Shown here one piece after another: positions 36,472 through 41,262 of a stretch of 64,000 bases of DNA (the first letter of the stretch is position 1; every line of letters starts with the position of its first letter). The notes beneath the pieces are model-generated. The model was not told the origin of the DNA. It saw only the letters and a program-made list of their open reading frames with translations, and ran no database searches. The DNA is from Posidoniimonas polymericola. Lineage in GTDB: Bacteria; Planctomycetota; Planctomycetia; Pirellulales; Lacipirellulaceae. The stretch lies in the NCBI RefSeq assembly GCF_007859935.1, contig NZ_SJPO01000007.1, positions 186,001 through 250,000 on the forward strand. Direction: 5' to 3'. A program made the position numbers and the translations under genes.

Positions 36472-37515
36472 ATGAGCTACCGTCGCCCGGTCGTACGCGG
36501 TTTCACACTGGTTGAATTGCTAGTGGTGATCGCAATTATCGGCGTCTTGATTGCGCTGCTGCTCCCAGCAGTTCAAGCCGCGCGTGAGAGCGCCCGCCGA
36601 TCTCAGTGTCTAAACCACCTCAAGCAGATCGGACTCGGGTACGCCAATCACCACGACACGCACAGCTTCTTCCCGTCCGGCGGTTGGGCCGCGCAGTGGG
36701 TAGGCGACGCCGACCGCGGGTTTGGCAAGAAGCAGCCGGGGGGCTGGGTCTACCACATCCTGCCATTCGTCGAAGAGCAGCAGGTGTGGGATCTCCCTAG
36801 CGACGGCGATCCCAGCGGCCTCTACCAGCCGGTGCAGCTCGCCGGCGCGAAGCAGATGCAAGAAACCGCCATTAGCATCTTCAACTGCCCGAGCCGCCGG
36901 CGGGCCACGGCGTACCCCTACGTGATCGGCTCAGGCTTTTTCGCGGTCCGTAACTCCGACGAACCCGAGGCTGTCGCCCGCACCGACTACGCGGCCAACA
37001 GCGGTGACGGCGAGATGGGCGAGTGGTTCTACGACGAGGGCACCGACCAGTATCAGACGTTCTCGTTCCCCAATAACTACGCTCGGGTGGACCGCGGGAT
37101 CTACGCGTTCCCTCCTCAGAAAGGCCAGTCCGGAGTCTCGTTTTTGGGGAGCGAAGTCAAGATCAGCCAAGTTATCGACGGTACGAGCAAGACTGTGGTG
37201 GCCTCGGAGAAGTTTCTGACCCCGCTCTACTACGAGACCGGCGAGGGCGGAGCCGACAACCACAGCATGTACCAGGGCTACGATCGGGACATCTATCGTT
37301 GGGCATTCAAAGACCCTCAGGGCGCGGGGGACATAGGTCCTCTGCAGGACAACACGACGGCCGACCTGTGGTTCAATTTTGGCGCCGCCCACCCCGCTGT
37401 GTTCAACGCGGCGTTTGCCGACGGGTCGGTCCGCTCGATCGCCTACAGCGTGGACGTCTTGATGTTCAGCCGGGCGTGCAGCCGGTTTGACGGCGAGGTC
37501 ATGGACCTCCAATGA
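36472..37515 (+). CDS. DUF1559 prepilin-like protein
   Basis: A 347-residue DUF1559 protein. A type IV prepilin-type N-terminus ([20 protein letters not shown], cleaved after Gly at about residue 10) forms one hydrophobic helix, followed by [20 protein letters not shown] and a large surface domain. The C-terminus carries the family [20 protein letters not shown] motif near residue 300. Planctomycetes encode dozens of these; they are thought to be surface pseudopilins, with no proven role. It overlaps the EF-hand lipoprotein gene by four bases. Confidence 0.93.
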
Positions 37516-38162
37516 GCTGGAACGCCCCACGCACTTGCCATCGCTTGCACCCCCTGTTAATGCTCGCTTCGTGCTGCTCGCTCGGCTGCGGCAGTGGGAG
37601 TCCGGCCATCCCGATCCCGAAGGTAAACCCTGGCGGCGCCGCGGCAGCGGCCATGGAGATGTACGACGCCGACGCCGACGGCGCGCTCTCCACCGAGGAG
37701 ATCGCGGCGTGCCCCGGGCTCGAAGCGGCGGCCGCCCTCTACGACTCAGACGGGGATGGCGTCATCACTGCCGCCGAGATCAAGACCCGGCTCGGAAAAT
37801 GGCGGGACGCAAAGATCGCGATCGTCTCGCTGTCGTGCAAGGTGACCCTCGACGGCCGGCCCCTGTCCGACGCCACGGTGACGCTCACGCCAGAGGGCTA
37901 CCTGGGCGACCAGATCAATACCGCGAGCGGCGTCACGGGACGGCGTGGCTCCGCAGTAGTCTCGATCCCTGCGGAGGTCATGCCCGCGGGATCCGAGGGG
38001 TTCCGCGGAGTGAACTACGGCACCTACCGGGTGGCGATCGAGCACCCGAGCGTGTCGATCCCGGAGAGGTACCAGCGAACCTCCGTGCTGGGTCTCGAGG
38101 TTGCGCCGGACTGCGGCGCGCCCTACGCGAGCTTTGAGTTGCGGTCGGAGTCGAAAGGCTGA
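37512..38162 (+). CDS. EF-hand lipoprotein paired with DUF1559
   Basis: A 216-residue predicted lipoprotein: a signal peptide with [12 protein letters not shown] at about residues 18-29 supplies a lipobox Cys. Two EF-hand-like calcium loops follow, [12 protein letters not shown] near residue 51 and [12 protein letters not shown] near 77. The rest (about 105-216) is a beta-sandwich resembling a carboxypeptidase-regulatory or transthyretin-like domain. It overlaps the DUF1559 gene by four bases (ATGA). DUF1559 genes in this phylum are often followed by such small Cys-lipoproteins; a second pair is at 46559-48119. Confidence 0.8.
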
Positions 38163-38240: not shown

Positions 38241-39074
38241 ATGCAAACCAACATTAACATGCCGGATGACAGCTGCGAGCGGCTCGGTCGACGGCTCGCC
38301 CGGTACGCGCTGATTGCAGGGGGCGTGGGCGCGGCGTCCGCTACCGACGCCTCGGCCGGAATAGTCGGGAACAGCGTTGTTACGCCGTTCGGCCTCAACG
38401 AGTCCGTGCAGATTGACCTCAACGGCGATGGCGAGATCGACTTCGAGATCGATCACGACCGCGCGCAGCTCAACGGCGCCGACATCGACTTCCTGCAGAT
38501 CGACAAGAACGACCAGGTCGGCCTGGCGTTGCCGGGCGTCGACTTCCCAGACGCGGGACCGGTCGGCATCAACGACGACCACGGCTACCTGACCGATATC
38601 TCCGGCAACTACCCAACAGCGCTCTCCGCGGGCGACACCATCGGGCTTGGGTCGAGCGGGCTGTTCGAGTTCCAGGAGTCTTCCAGCTACGTGGGCGGCG
38701 GAACGACAATCCGCGCCAACCGTCTGATCGACGAGGACGCCGGGCAGCTCGATGCCGATGCGGGCACGCTCACCACCCTGCCGGGCGGCGCAGCCGGGTG
38801 GACCGGTCTCAATGGCGACGTTGGCTACGTCGGGCTGGCAATCGACTTCAACGGGGGTTCTGACGCCCTTAGCTACGGCTGGGTGGGTGTGCGGATCACC
38901 AACGAGGCCGACGCCACGGGCGAGGTCGTTGGGTTCGCCTACAACGACGTCCCCGGCGAGCCGATACTGGCTGGCCAGGTCCCCGAGCCTAGCTCGCTGC
39001 TGATCGCAGGGGCGGCGGCTCTGGCATTGTTCGGGCGCCGCACGCTCGGCAGGACCCGCGGCCGGCGAGTCTAG
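38241..39074 (+). CDS. PEP-CTERM protein, first of two tandem paralogues
   Basis: A 277-residue secreted protein. An N-terminal export segment (about 18-45) leads to a domain with calcium-loop-like IDLNGDGEIDFEIDHD near residue 58. The C-terminus is the PEP-CTERM sorting signal VPEPSSLLIAGAAALALFG followed by a basic tail. GGAG at 38229-38232 lies 8 bases before the ATG. It is paralogous over most of its length with the next protein: both share FGLNESV/FGINESV, RLIDEDAGQLDA/RLIDEDMGQIDA and GWVGVRITNEADATG/GWIGVQITNEADATG. Function unknown; an exosortase-type enzyme would anchor it. Confidence 0.85.
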   Translation: MQTNINMPDDSCERLGRRLARYALIAGGVGAASATDASAGIVGNSVVTPFGLNESVQIDLNGDGEIDFEIDHDRAQLNGADIDFLQIDKNDQVGLALPGVDFPDAGPVGINDDHGYLTDISGNYPTALSAGDTIGLGSSGLFEFQESSSYVGGGTTIRANRLIDEDAGQLDADAGTLTTLPGGAAGWTGLNGDVGYVGLAIDFNGGSDALSYGWVGVRITNEADATGEVVGFAYNDVPGEPILAGQVPEPSSLLIAGAAALALFGRRTLGRTRGRRV

Positions 39075-39089
39075 TTTCGAATCTGCAGT

Positions 39090-39126
39090 TGGCGGTTGCG
39101 GGGTCGGCACGGCCCCGCGACCGCCA
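39090..39126 (+). terminator. Long hairpin between the two PEP-CTERM paralogues
   Basis: A 14-bp stem with one wobble pair (39090-39103 with 39113-39126) around a 9-base loop, 16 bases after the stop and without a T-run. It may separate or protect the transcripts of the two paralogues. Confidence 0.55.
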
Positions 39127-39180
39127 GCCGCTGCGCTTGAGTAAACGGCACCAACACCGACCCCATCAGGCAGGGCAACT

Positions 39181-40299
39181 ATGGCGCTCTCTTCACGCAA
39201 CACCGACGCGGGAAACAATCCGCTCGGCCGCAGGCTCGCGACCTACCTTTCAACCGTCGGGGCGGTGGGCCTTGCCGCCGGTCAGCGGGCAGACGGCGTG
39301 GTCATCGCCGACCTCACCGATCGGCCCTTCGGAATCAACGAGTCCGTTGACATCGATTTCGACGGTGACGGCAATGTCGAGTTCCAGTTGGATCACGACC
39401 GCGTCGAGCTAAACGGCGTTACGCTCGACTACCTGCAACTCGACAAGAACGACGTCAACGGCGCGCTGAGCGCCAATCCAGTCGCGTCCGAGCTGTCCCC
39501 CATCGACGCGTTCGCCACCTTCCCGGGAACCCCGCCCGACTACAGCGGGGACGACCTCTGGAACGCCGCCGACTACACCGTCTGGCGAGACAACCAGGGC
39601 CAGACCGGCGTGCCGGGTGACGGCAACCTCGATGGGCAGATCAACCAGGCCGACTATGACGTTTTCGTCAACAGCTACGGCAAGGCGCCCGCCGGCGGCA
39701 GCAAGGACCACGGCTACGTCAGCGACCAGCTGCTCTGCGGCCCGTTTGGCGGTGGGGGGTGCTACCCTTCGGCGCTCGAGGCGGGCTCCAGCATCGGCCC
39801 GGAGCTGGGCTACGAGTTCCAGGAGTCGGACAACGCATTTGGCAATGGCACCGTGCTGCGTACGAACCGACTCATTGATGAAGACATGGGGCAGATCGAC
39901 GCGTCGTTCGGTTCCAACCCAGAGACGATCTTCGACACGCCACAGTTCGCCGGGCTCGGCGGAGCCGAACGCTTCCTGGGCGTGCGGATCGACCTGAGCG
40001 ACGCGATTTACCCGGACAACCCGTTTCCCTCCATCAACGGACCCGACGACGTCGACGACCCAGCGAACTACGTCTACGGCTGGATCGGCGTGCAGATCAC
40101 CAACGAAGCCGACGCGACTGGGCTCGTTACCGGGTTTGCCTACGAGTCCGAGCCCGGGGTTGCGATCCAGGCAGGCGATGTCGGGGGCGGATTAGCCGTC
40201 GCGGCGCCGGAGCCGACTTCCATGCTGTTGGCCGCTCTCTGCCTGGTTGGCGTGGTTGGCATTCTGCTACGCAGAACCCGCCGAGCCATGCAGCCGTAG
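39181..40299 (+). CDS. PEP-CTERM protein with internal dockerin-like module, second paralogue
   Basis: A 372-residue secreted protein, paralogue of the preceding one. It has the same N-terminal and C-terminal halves but carries about 70 extra residues in the middle (about 105-175). That insert contains a dockerin-type pair: NAADYTVWRDN and then DGNLDGQINQADYDVFVNSYG near residues 147-167, with a calcium loop (the first loop is degenerate). The insert sits in the loop where the shorter paralogue reads LPGVDFPDAGPVG. The C-terminus is APEPTSMLLAALCLVGVVGI followed by arginines, a PEP-CTERM signal. Function unknown. Confidence 0.85.
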   Translation: MALSSRNTDAGNNPLGRRLATYLSTVGAVGLAAGQRADGVVIADLTDRPFGINESVDIDFDGDGNVEFQLDHDRVELNGVTLDYLQLDKNDVNGALSANPVASELSPIDAFATFPGTPPDYSGDDLWNAADYTVWRDNQGQTGVPGDGNLDGQINQADYDVFVNSYGKAPAGGSKDHGYVSDQLLCGPFGGGGCYPSALEAGSSIGPELGYEFQESDNAFGNGTVLRTNRLIDEDMGQIDASFGSNPETIFDTPQFAGLGGAERFLGVRIDLSDAIYPDNPFPSINGPDDVDDPANYVYGWIGVQITNEADATGLVTGFAYESEPGVAIQAGDVGGGLAVAAPEPTSMLLAALCLVGVVGILLRRTRRAMQP

Positions 40300-40347: not shown

Positions 40348-41262
40348 ATGTGTGCAAACTCGACAAGCATGAACAGCCAGCCAACTCGTCGCGAGCGTGA
40401 CGTGCGGCACCTCTTTGCGCTCGGATACCGCGATCCAGAGCAGGAGCGGAAGCAGGCGGTCGAGCAGCGCGAACGCCGGCGGACGGCTATGGCGGAGATT
40501 GAGCGGCGCGCCGCATCGGGCGAGATTACTCAGGCGAAGGAGGCCGCCGCCGCGCTCTTGCTGCAATCGCCGGACGACCTCGAGCTCAACTTGAGGGTAG
40601 CGAAGCTCTTTTACGCTCTAGGGGAGATGCGCCTTGCCTTGCCTTGCCTGGACACGCTAATGCACAGCGGGGTCGAGACTCCAAACGTGGTCCACCTGCG
40701 TGGCGCAGTCCTGCTTGGAATGCGGCAGCTGCCGATGGCTGCCGAGCAGCTGGAATACGCGAGGCATCTCGAGCCGTCGCGCCCCGAGCTGCACGCTCAG
40801 CTTGGCTGGGCGTACCTGCGGGTGGGGGCCGCCCAGCAGGCCGAGGAAGCCTTCAGACGCGAACTCGCCACAAATCCCCGCAGCTACTCCGCGCTGCACG
40901 GGATGGCAGCCGCGCTGTGCCGGCGGTCGGCATTCGAGCAGTCCGCGGAGCACGCCCTCGACGCGATCGAGCAGAGGCCGGGCGATTGGCGCACTCACTA
41001 CCGTTTGGGGGTTGCGCTGGTCCAACTCGGTCGAACCGACGACGCAGCCGGGGCGTTTCAAGCCGCAGTGAGGTTGGACCAGCGTTGCCTGGCGCCCCTG
41101 CGATGGCTAGCGGAATGCCTCGCAGAAGGCTCCCGCGGGCGGCAGGCCTGCCAGGACGAAACGCGGCGGCGCCTGGCGACTCGGCGGGCTCAGAGGATCC
41201 CCGGCGGCGGCGATCAGCGGGCCGACGGCCCGGCACGCTCGGCTCGACCCCATCAGCAGTGA
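40348..41262 (+). CDS. Tetratricopeptide-repeat protein
   Basis: A 304-residue soluble protein with a charged N-terminal helix (about 10-55) and five to six TPR units (about 55-265), including the AQLGWAYLRVGAAQQAEEAFRREL and HYRLGVALVQLGRTDDAAGAFQAAVRLD repeats. There is no signal peptide. A second ATG at 40369 could be the start. The Arg/Gln-rich tail after residue 270 is probably disordered. It lies between PEP-CTERM genes and the sugar regulator; its partner is unknown. Confidence 0.75.
   Translation: MCANSTSMNSQPTRRERDVRHLFALGYRDPEQERKQAVEQRERRRTAMAEIERRAASGEITQAKEAAAALLLQSPDDLELNLRVAKLFYALGEMRLALPCLDTLMHSGVETPNVVHLRGAVLLGMRQLPMAAEQLEYARHLEPSRPELHAQLGWAYLRVGAAQQAEEAFRRELATNPRSYSALHGMAAALCRRSAFEQSAEHALDAIEQRPGDWRTHYRLGVALVQLGRTDDAAGAFQAAVRLDQRCLAPLRWLAECLAEGSRGRQACQDETRRRLATRRAQRIPGGGDQRADGPARSARPHQQ

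Follow-up and report, generated by a model that had tools for sequence, protein, structure and literature searches.

Type I dockerins consist of two F-hand-like calcium loops with following helices, each calcium loop having D-, N-, or S-type ligands at positions 1, 3, and 5 and D at position 12. The dockerins of cellulosomes (PF00404) are about 55 to 60 residues long and mostly lie near the C terminus of the protein that carries them. Internal dockerins as such are already known, as the counts given for Ruminococcus flavefaciens FD-1 make clear (156 C-terminal, 32 internal, and 19 N-terminal; PMC2930009). Noncellulosomal dockerins of planctomycetes appear in the “planctosome” proposal for Nemodlikiaceae, a model with cohesin-bearing anchor and adaptor proteins and peptidases (PMC6461901). 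PEP-CTERM/exosortase substrates (PF07589) are recognized by an N-terminal signal-like helix and a C-terminal PEP motif followed by a hydrophobic helix and arginines (PMC1569441). The main text of the latter paper uses the word “dockerin” 0 times and describes no link between dockerins and PEP-CTERM proteins, and we found no paper containing both terms in a literature search whose scope excluded most subscription journals and all bioRxiv preprints.

We analyzed a tandem pair of genes, A and B, in a 64,000-nt stretch of the Posidoniimonas polymericola genome (here called the window). Both products resemble the exosortase substrates described above, and B additionally carries a dockerin-like module of the type I kind in a loop. 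The resemblance to cellulosomal dockerins has limits: the module is carried by a small PEP-CTERM protein without a Pfam enzymatic domain, it scores below the PF00404 and NCBIfam cutoffs, and Pfam cohesins occur in just 7 of 43 genomes of the family (6 of them above the cutoff; divergent cohesins could be missed). The scarcity of cohesin matches and the PEP-CTERM nature of the carriers also set this system apart from the planctosome as it is modeled in PMC6461901. Finally, the position of the module differs between orthologues and between paralogues, a further difference from cellulosomal dockerins. The best overall explanation, and in our judgment the probable one, is that the module of B was relocated from the C terminus to the loop in the lineage shared by the window and one other genome, G019. 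Features of the locus are listed in Table 1.

Table 1. Coordinates of proteins A and B, their sequence features, and conserved neighbors in the window
Feature	Position	Strand	Basis
Conserved neighbor: DUF1559 protein with N-terminal methylation motif	36472..37515	+	Pfam; matched in 10/12 other pair loci
Conserved neighbor: EF-hand protein, lipoprotein by the look of its N terminus	37512..38162	+	Pfam; 10/12 other pair loci
Protein A, 277 aa, first of the tandem pair; PEP-CTERM, lacking a dockerin	38241..39074	+	no dockerin at E<0.05
PEP-CTERM exosortase signal of A, residues 246-267	38976..39041	+	Pfam PF07589, 24 bits, cutoff 20.7
Protein B, 372 aa, second of the pair; PEP-CTERM, with an internal dockerin	39181..40299	+	
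Dockerin-like module in loop of B, about residues 117-174, read as relocated	39529..39702	+	HMM
First calcium loop of B module, DYSGDDLWNAAD, residues 120-131	39538..39573	+	read from sequence
Second calcium loop of B module, DGNLDGQINQAD, residues 147-158	39619..39654	+	read from sequence
Linker stub DVGGGLAVA of B, residues 333-341, read as remnant of a lost C-terminal dockerin	40177..40203	+	alignment
PEP-CTERM signal of B, residues 341-365	40201..40275	+	Pfam 19.9 bits, slightly below cutoff of 20.7
Conserved neighbor: TPR protein	40348..41262	+	Pfam; matched in 11/12 other pair loci

An earlier note on this DNA had described two adjacent open reading frames whose products align at both ends. 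This was confirmed, with 51% identity over 77 residues at the N terminus and 38% over 256 columns in the remainder (E = 5e-34). A belongs to the PEP-CTERM class by its PF07589 score and B, just under the cutoff, by a motif that is plain in the sequence; the same genome has three matches to the exosortase model PF09721, above the cutoff (best E = 2.4e-34). B exceeds A by 95 residues overall, a figure that includes other small loop extensions. The note was right to place an extra segment in a loop, and its estimate of about 70 residues was slightly high for the module alone, which spans about 58. The core of A has a DxNxDG loop of its own at residues 57 to 69 (Pfam EF-hand_5, E = 0.012, below the cutoff), so calcium may matter to the core as well. 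Around the pair, the DUF1559, EF-hand, and TPR genes recur in varying order, and the misses are two short contigs of one genome (G039). In two scanned relatives the TPR protein carries a fused type I phosphodiesterase domain (L046:8371-10425 and L051:3839-5821; Pfam), while the window copy has TPR-type matches only.

The extra segment of B holds both dockerin calcium loops (D120-D131 and D147-D158), with ligands D, S, D, and D in the first and D, N, D, and D in the second. The dockerin-type calcium loop that had been noticed in the second protein is thus one of two, and B carries a full two-repeat module; a single-loop remnant is ruled out. When residues 118 to 170 were compared with a hidden Markov model whose 102 training modules came from the same genome but did not include the window's own, the match had an E value of 1.8e-16, which rules out chance. 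The genome contains 117 further matches. General models did not recognize it: Pfam gave no dockerin (PF00404) match to B or its insert at E ≤ 1, and the NCBIfam model dockerin_GC reached only 14 bits (cutoff, 29). PF00404 nevertheless has 47 matches in this genome at E ≤ 0.001, and by the own-genome model, the module of B is homologous to same-genome dockerin-like modules of which some match PF00404. Scores of B copies from other genomes straddle the PF00404 cutoff of 22.9 bits: of three copies with C-terminal modules, L041 (29.9) and L044 (25.1) pass and L042 (18.5) fails, and the internal module of the G019 copy (L051) had no match at E ≤ 0.1.

As the earlier note had stated for dockerins in general, the usual place for these modules is near the C terminus: 91 of the 117 others in the genome end no more than 80 residues from the end of the frame, and a PEP motif, called by pattern, lies downstream of 68. 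By eye, some of the remaining 26 are in large proteins with other tails and some are in fused frames, and a few lie inside small PEP-CTERM proteins. In a DNA comparison of same-genome modules, no recent source of the window module stood out clearly; the best match, 91% over 55 bases, does not identify one, as that much similarity can arise from conserved residues encoded by GC-rich codons. The best pairs among other modules match mostly inside the module, and some matches are longer or extend to the flanks. The GC3 of the insert (0.90, versus 0.82 in the rest of the gene) is suggestive at most.

The A/B pair is old and conserved. A search of 43 genomes of the family (Lacipirellulaceae) with A as the query found tandem pairs in 11 other genomes, and a contig scan added a metagenome-assembled genome, JALHQZ, for a total of 13 pairs. 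In G041, the sole other genome labeled as the same genus, the match was short. A profile search across the order, which covered 396 genomes out of a larger group and scored six candidates per genome, yielded no full-length match outside the family at E ≤ 1e-10; its two out-of-family matches (G071 and G229) were short and C-terminal only. We scored module position with the own-genome model (E < 0.05) in 27 proteins, made up of the 13 pairs and one further B copy. No A copy carried a module (0/13), so the homologues do not show a short form that arose by loss of an ancestral insert, the history that the earlier note had set against its own. All 14 B copies carried one. In 12 it is C-terminal, directly before the PEP-CTERM signal and with tails of 39 to 43 residues, and in 2, those of the window and of G019, it is internal. 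None of the 14 had modules in both places, and no two-module intermediate was seen. JALH_B has two overlapping matches at the C-terminal place, and the C-terminal modules of G011_B and G012_B are short and weak (E = 0.0085 and 0.025, respectively).

The alignment also preserves a trace at the C terminus of B. In all 13 A copies, the sequence AG (MG in G019) runs directly into xPEP with no linker. In the 12 B copies with C-terminal modules, AG[DEQ][TIVF][GA]... precedes the dockerin. The two internal forms retain a stub of this linker (AGDVG-GGLAVA in the window and AGDTG-VPPLGA in G019). Conversely, the region of the insert is a gap in 13/13 A copies and in 12/12 B copies with C-terminal dockerins. 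G019 is labeled as another genus and shares the internal-module architecture of the window, including the loop junction AFATFPG. The host cores of the two proteins are 50% identical; their internal modules are 31.6% identical, and the loops differ in length.

Trees were built from 280 columns after removal of the module columns. The window and G019 B copies were sisters (95/85) within a group of eight B copies, the other six being C-terminal forms, and they remained sisters (96/86) when the long-branched A copy of G019 was left out; parsimony required three state changes in both trees. In AU tests, the P values of which are indicative because the groups were named after the tree had been seen, a sister relationship of window A and window B was rejected (P = 0.0002), as was a clade of window B, window A, JALH A, and G019 A (P = 0.027), while a single clade of all B copies was not (P = 0.10). 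Window A paired with JALH A (93/72; 100/100 without the long branch), and the corresponding pairing of window B with JALH B was rejected (P = 0.003). The B copies of g12 and G027 clustered with A copies, and gene conversion or noise therefore blurs the history of A and B. In G025 (L041:5575-7942), A and B are nearly identical from VNIDFNGDGQ to the DKND region. Judged from this stretch and from the B copies that group with A copies, gene conversion between the tandem genes is possible.

Differences in module position are found in another family as well. Families F7, F17, and F2 were chosen because they have internal modules in the window genome and hence yield no rate of switching. Of the matches listed for F7 (G000:C7:285411), 30 loci were scored: 23 were internal, 4 were C-terminal, and 3 were without a module. 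The C-terminal forms fall at two places in the tree, one of them a case called by eye. The other is a paralogue clade of G008, G011, and G012 (100/100), joined to four internal forms at 96/87; these three genomes hold both F7 forms. The case called by eye, L184 of G019, is C-terminal, and its nearest relative by identity (64%, in G020) is internal; it could be a mirror image of the window case, but its module is degenerate and its place in the tree unsupported. F2 (C2:248811), with two internal forms and one C-terminal form, hints weakly at a switch in a third family, the C-terminal member sharing only 52 aligned residues. The eight loci of F17 (C17:33767) comprise four that are internal by the model, one degenerate and internal by eye, one cut by a contig end, and two without a module. 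Two control families with C-terminal modules, chosen because they are located in the window, showed no internal form: in K1, 18 of 19 loci were C-terminal (two of them being one frame) and one frame had no module, and in K2, 3 of 9 loci were C-terminal and 6 were without a module.

Relocation is favored because the two internal forms are sisters nested among C-terminal forms and because both retain a linker stub that A copies lack; on the simplest history, then, B lost its C-terminal module and gained one in the loop. The relocation, its confinement to a single clade, the stub, and the position differences in another family are supported by the data presented here. The earlier note had proposed a recent insertion after gene duplication, implying that a dockerin landed in a dockerin-free copy. 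Within the window this is what one would see, with A lacking the module, B having it, and the two aligning at both ends. It is nonetheless very improbable given the rejection of window A and B as sisters, the existence of 13 pairs, and the C-terminal dockerins and stub of B. What survives of that proposal is that the internal dockerin is best read as derived and as later than the A/B duplication; the word “recent” does not survive. An equally remote prospect, in our estimation, is that the internal position is ancestral for B and that C-terminal forms were derived several times. In F7 the internal form is the commoner one and a C-terminal clade adjoins internal forms, so there the move may run from internal to C-terminal, but on the B tree that direction needs more changes, and the internal B forms carry the stub of a C-terminal linker.

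Two further readings concern how the window and G019 copies came to share an architecture. If loop insertions had occurred independently at the same site in the two lineages, each insertion following or accompanying the loss of the C-terminal module, the low identity of the internal modules and their different loop lengths would be explained. The window module is also nearer to five other-family modules of its own genome (0.28 to 0.45) than to other B modules (mean, 0.24; the value against other families in other genomes is 0.23). We consider such independent insertions unlikely; the single host clade, the common junction, and the 50% identical cores make drift of the module, or its later replacement in place, the simpler account of the divergence. 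A stronger contender, plausible if short of probable, is that the two internal-form B copies were horizontally transferred or represent a third paralogous lineage, in which case their architecture says nothing about vertical age. The pairing of window A, and not of window B, with its JALH counterpart points this way, as do the genus label of G019 and the gene order, A-B in the window and B-A in G019. Both copies, however, sit in the conserved neighborhood beside A and the TPR gene, and this reading is compatible with relocation, conflicting only with its dating.

For relocation itself, we envisage that A and B, both exported PEP-CTERM proteins, have long formed a tandem pair in which B carries the dockerin. 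The ancestor of B would have had its module at the C terminus, directly before the sorting signal. On the window/G019 branch, the C-terminal module would have been lost, leaving the linker stub, and a module would have arisen in the loop after AFATFPG, a site that appears tolerant because A and the other B copies have only a short spacer there. The route that we infer is recombination: in the likeliest version, another gene of the same genome supplied a copy of its module to the loop and the redundant C-terminal module was then deleted, although the reverse order is also allowed. Modules of the same genome reach 56% identity to that of the window, in a set collected with the window module as the query, and these better matches, together with the low identity between the two internal modules, suggest that the window and G019 modules may have had different donors.

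We compared module likeness in two ways. In the first test, a module's own genome was the single best background in 7 of 15 cases and exceeded the orthologue mean in 8 of 15 (label permutation, P = 5e-5), but this test is biased, because the background of the window genome was collected with the window module and the others came from a PF00404 listing (6 to 20 modules each), and relatedness of genomes was not removed. The second, with 67 modules of six families and permutation within families, likewise without removal of relatedness, gave a likeness of 0.420 for modules of different families in the same genome (n = 65 pairs) and 0.322 for those in different genomes (n = 1,582; P = 0.0003). Even modules of the same family, compared between genomes, averaged 0.369 (n = 558), below the value for different families within a genome. 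By eye, styles include AADYTVWRDN in the window genome, DGADFLIWQR in G034, G012, and G011, and AADYxVWR in G029; G011 and G012 have short-form modules in three families (B, F7, and K1). As far as sequences can tell, the within-genome likeness fits either copying within genomes or selection by a shared partner. Rather tentatively, and with more doubt than confidence, we suggest that the Lacipirellulaceae module may be a genome-internal mobile domain, copied among more than 100 genes for exported proteins and swapped between C terminus and loops, with one kept per protein and a lineage style maintained by copying or by a shared noncohesin partner. If so, it would serve exosortase substrates generally as a tag for docking or sorting, whatever its place in the protein.

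That orthologues retain one module while shifting its place suggests that the presence of the module is selected and its position is not; selection would have kept one dockerin per B protein wherever it lay. This favors a docking or calcium handle over a structural role at the C terminus or a part in the sorting signal. The function that we infer is accordingly that of a position-independent, calcium-dependent handle by which exported proteins processed by exosortase would be held to a shared partner on the surface or in the matrix; in most genomes of the family, this partner would be something other than a Pfam-recognizable cohesin. The search for a cohesin partner that the earlier note had recommended gave two matches in one 2,104-residue frame of the window genome and none in G019; cohesin, the expected partner of the abundant dockerin-like modules of these planctomycetes, is thus recognized by Pfam in few of the family genomes. 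The sole frame with cohesin matches in the window genome (L080, G000:C1:924897-926105) has a dockerin 138 residues from its end and, by pattern, no PEP motif after it.

AlphaFold predicted a beta-rich core for window B, with confident strands within residues 41 to 88, 263 to 270, and 298 to 322, and a C-terminal helix at residues 345 to 370. The internal module was modeled with low confidence (block means of 34 to 45 for residues 101 to 170), as only one row of the alignment has a module at that place. The Lacipirellula limnantheis B model (mean, 74.3) showed two helices in its C-terminal module at a pLDDT of about 60 to 70. A PDB fold search with the window B model returned no match at E ≤ 0.001. 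With an identical type of core and the same kind of module in two places, the window and L. limnantheis B proteins form a direct test pair.

Some frames of the window genome look like PEP-CTERM polyproteins (L124, L085, L145, L072, L077, L089, L108, L118, L133, and L150), in which the frame continues past an internal PEP-helix-RRR segment, with no stop codon, into a signal-peptide-like segment and further sequence. The literature search, with the same scope as above, found no paper with both “PEP-CTERM” and “polyprotein.” A pattern scan of 85 dockerin loci and the window gave 128 distinct matches, 17 of them with at least 100 residues after the motif; by eye, 12 of these look real and 5 resemble wrong-frame noise. 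Should the arrangement prove genuine, cleavage by exosortase and signal peptidase could release several exported proteins from a single chain. In L145, a methionine precedes the second segment.
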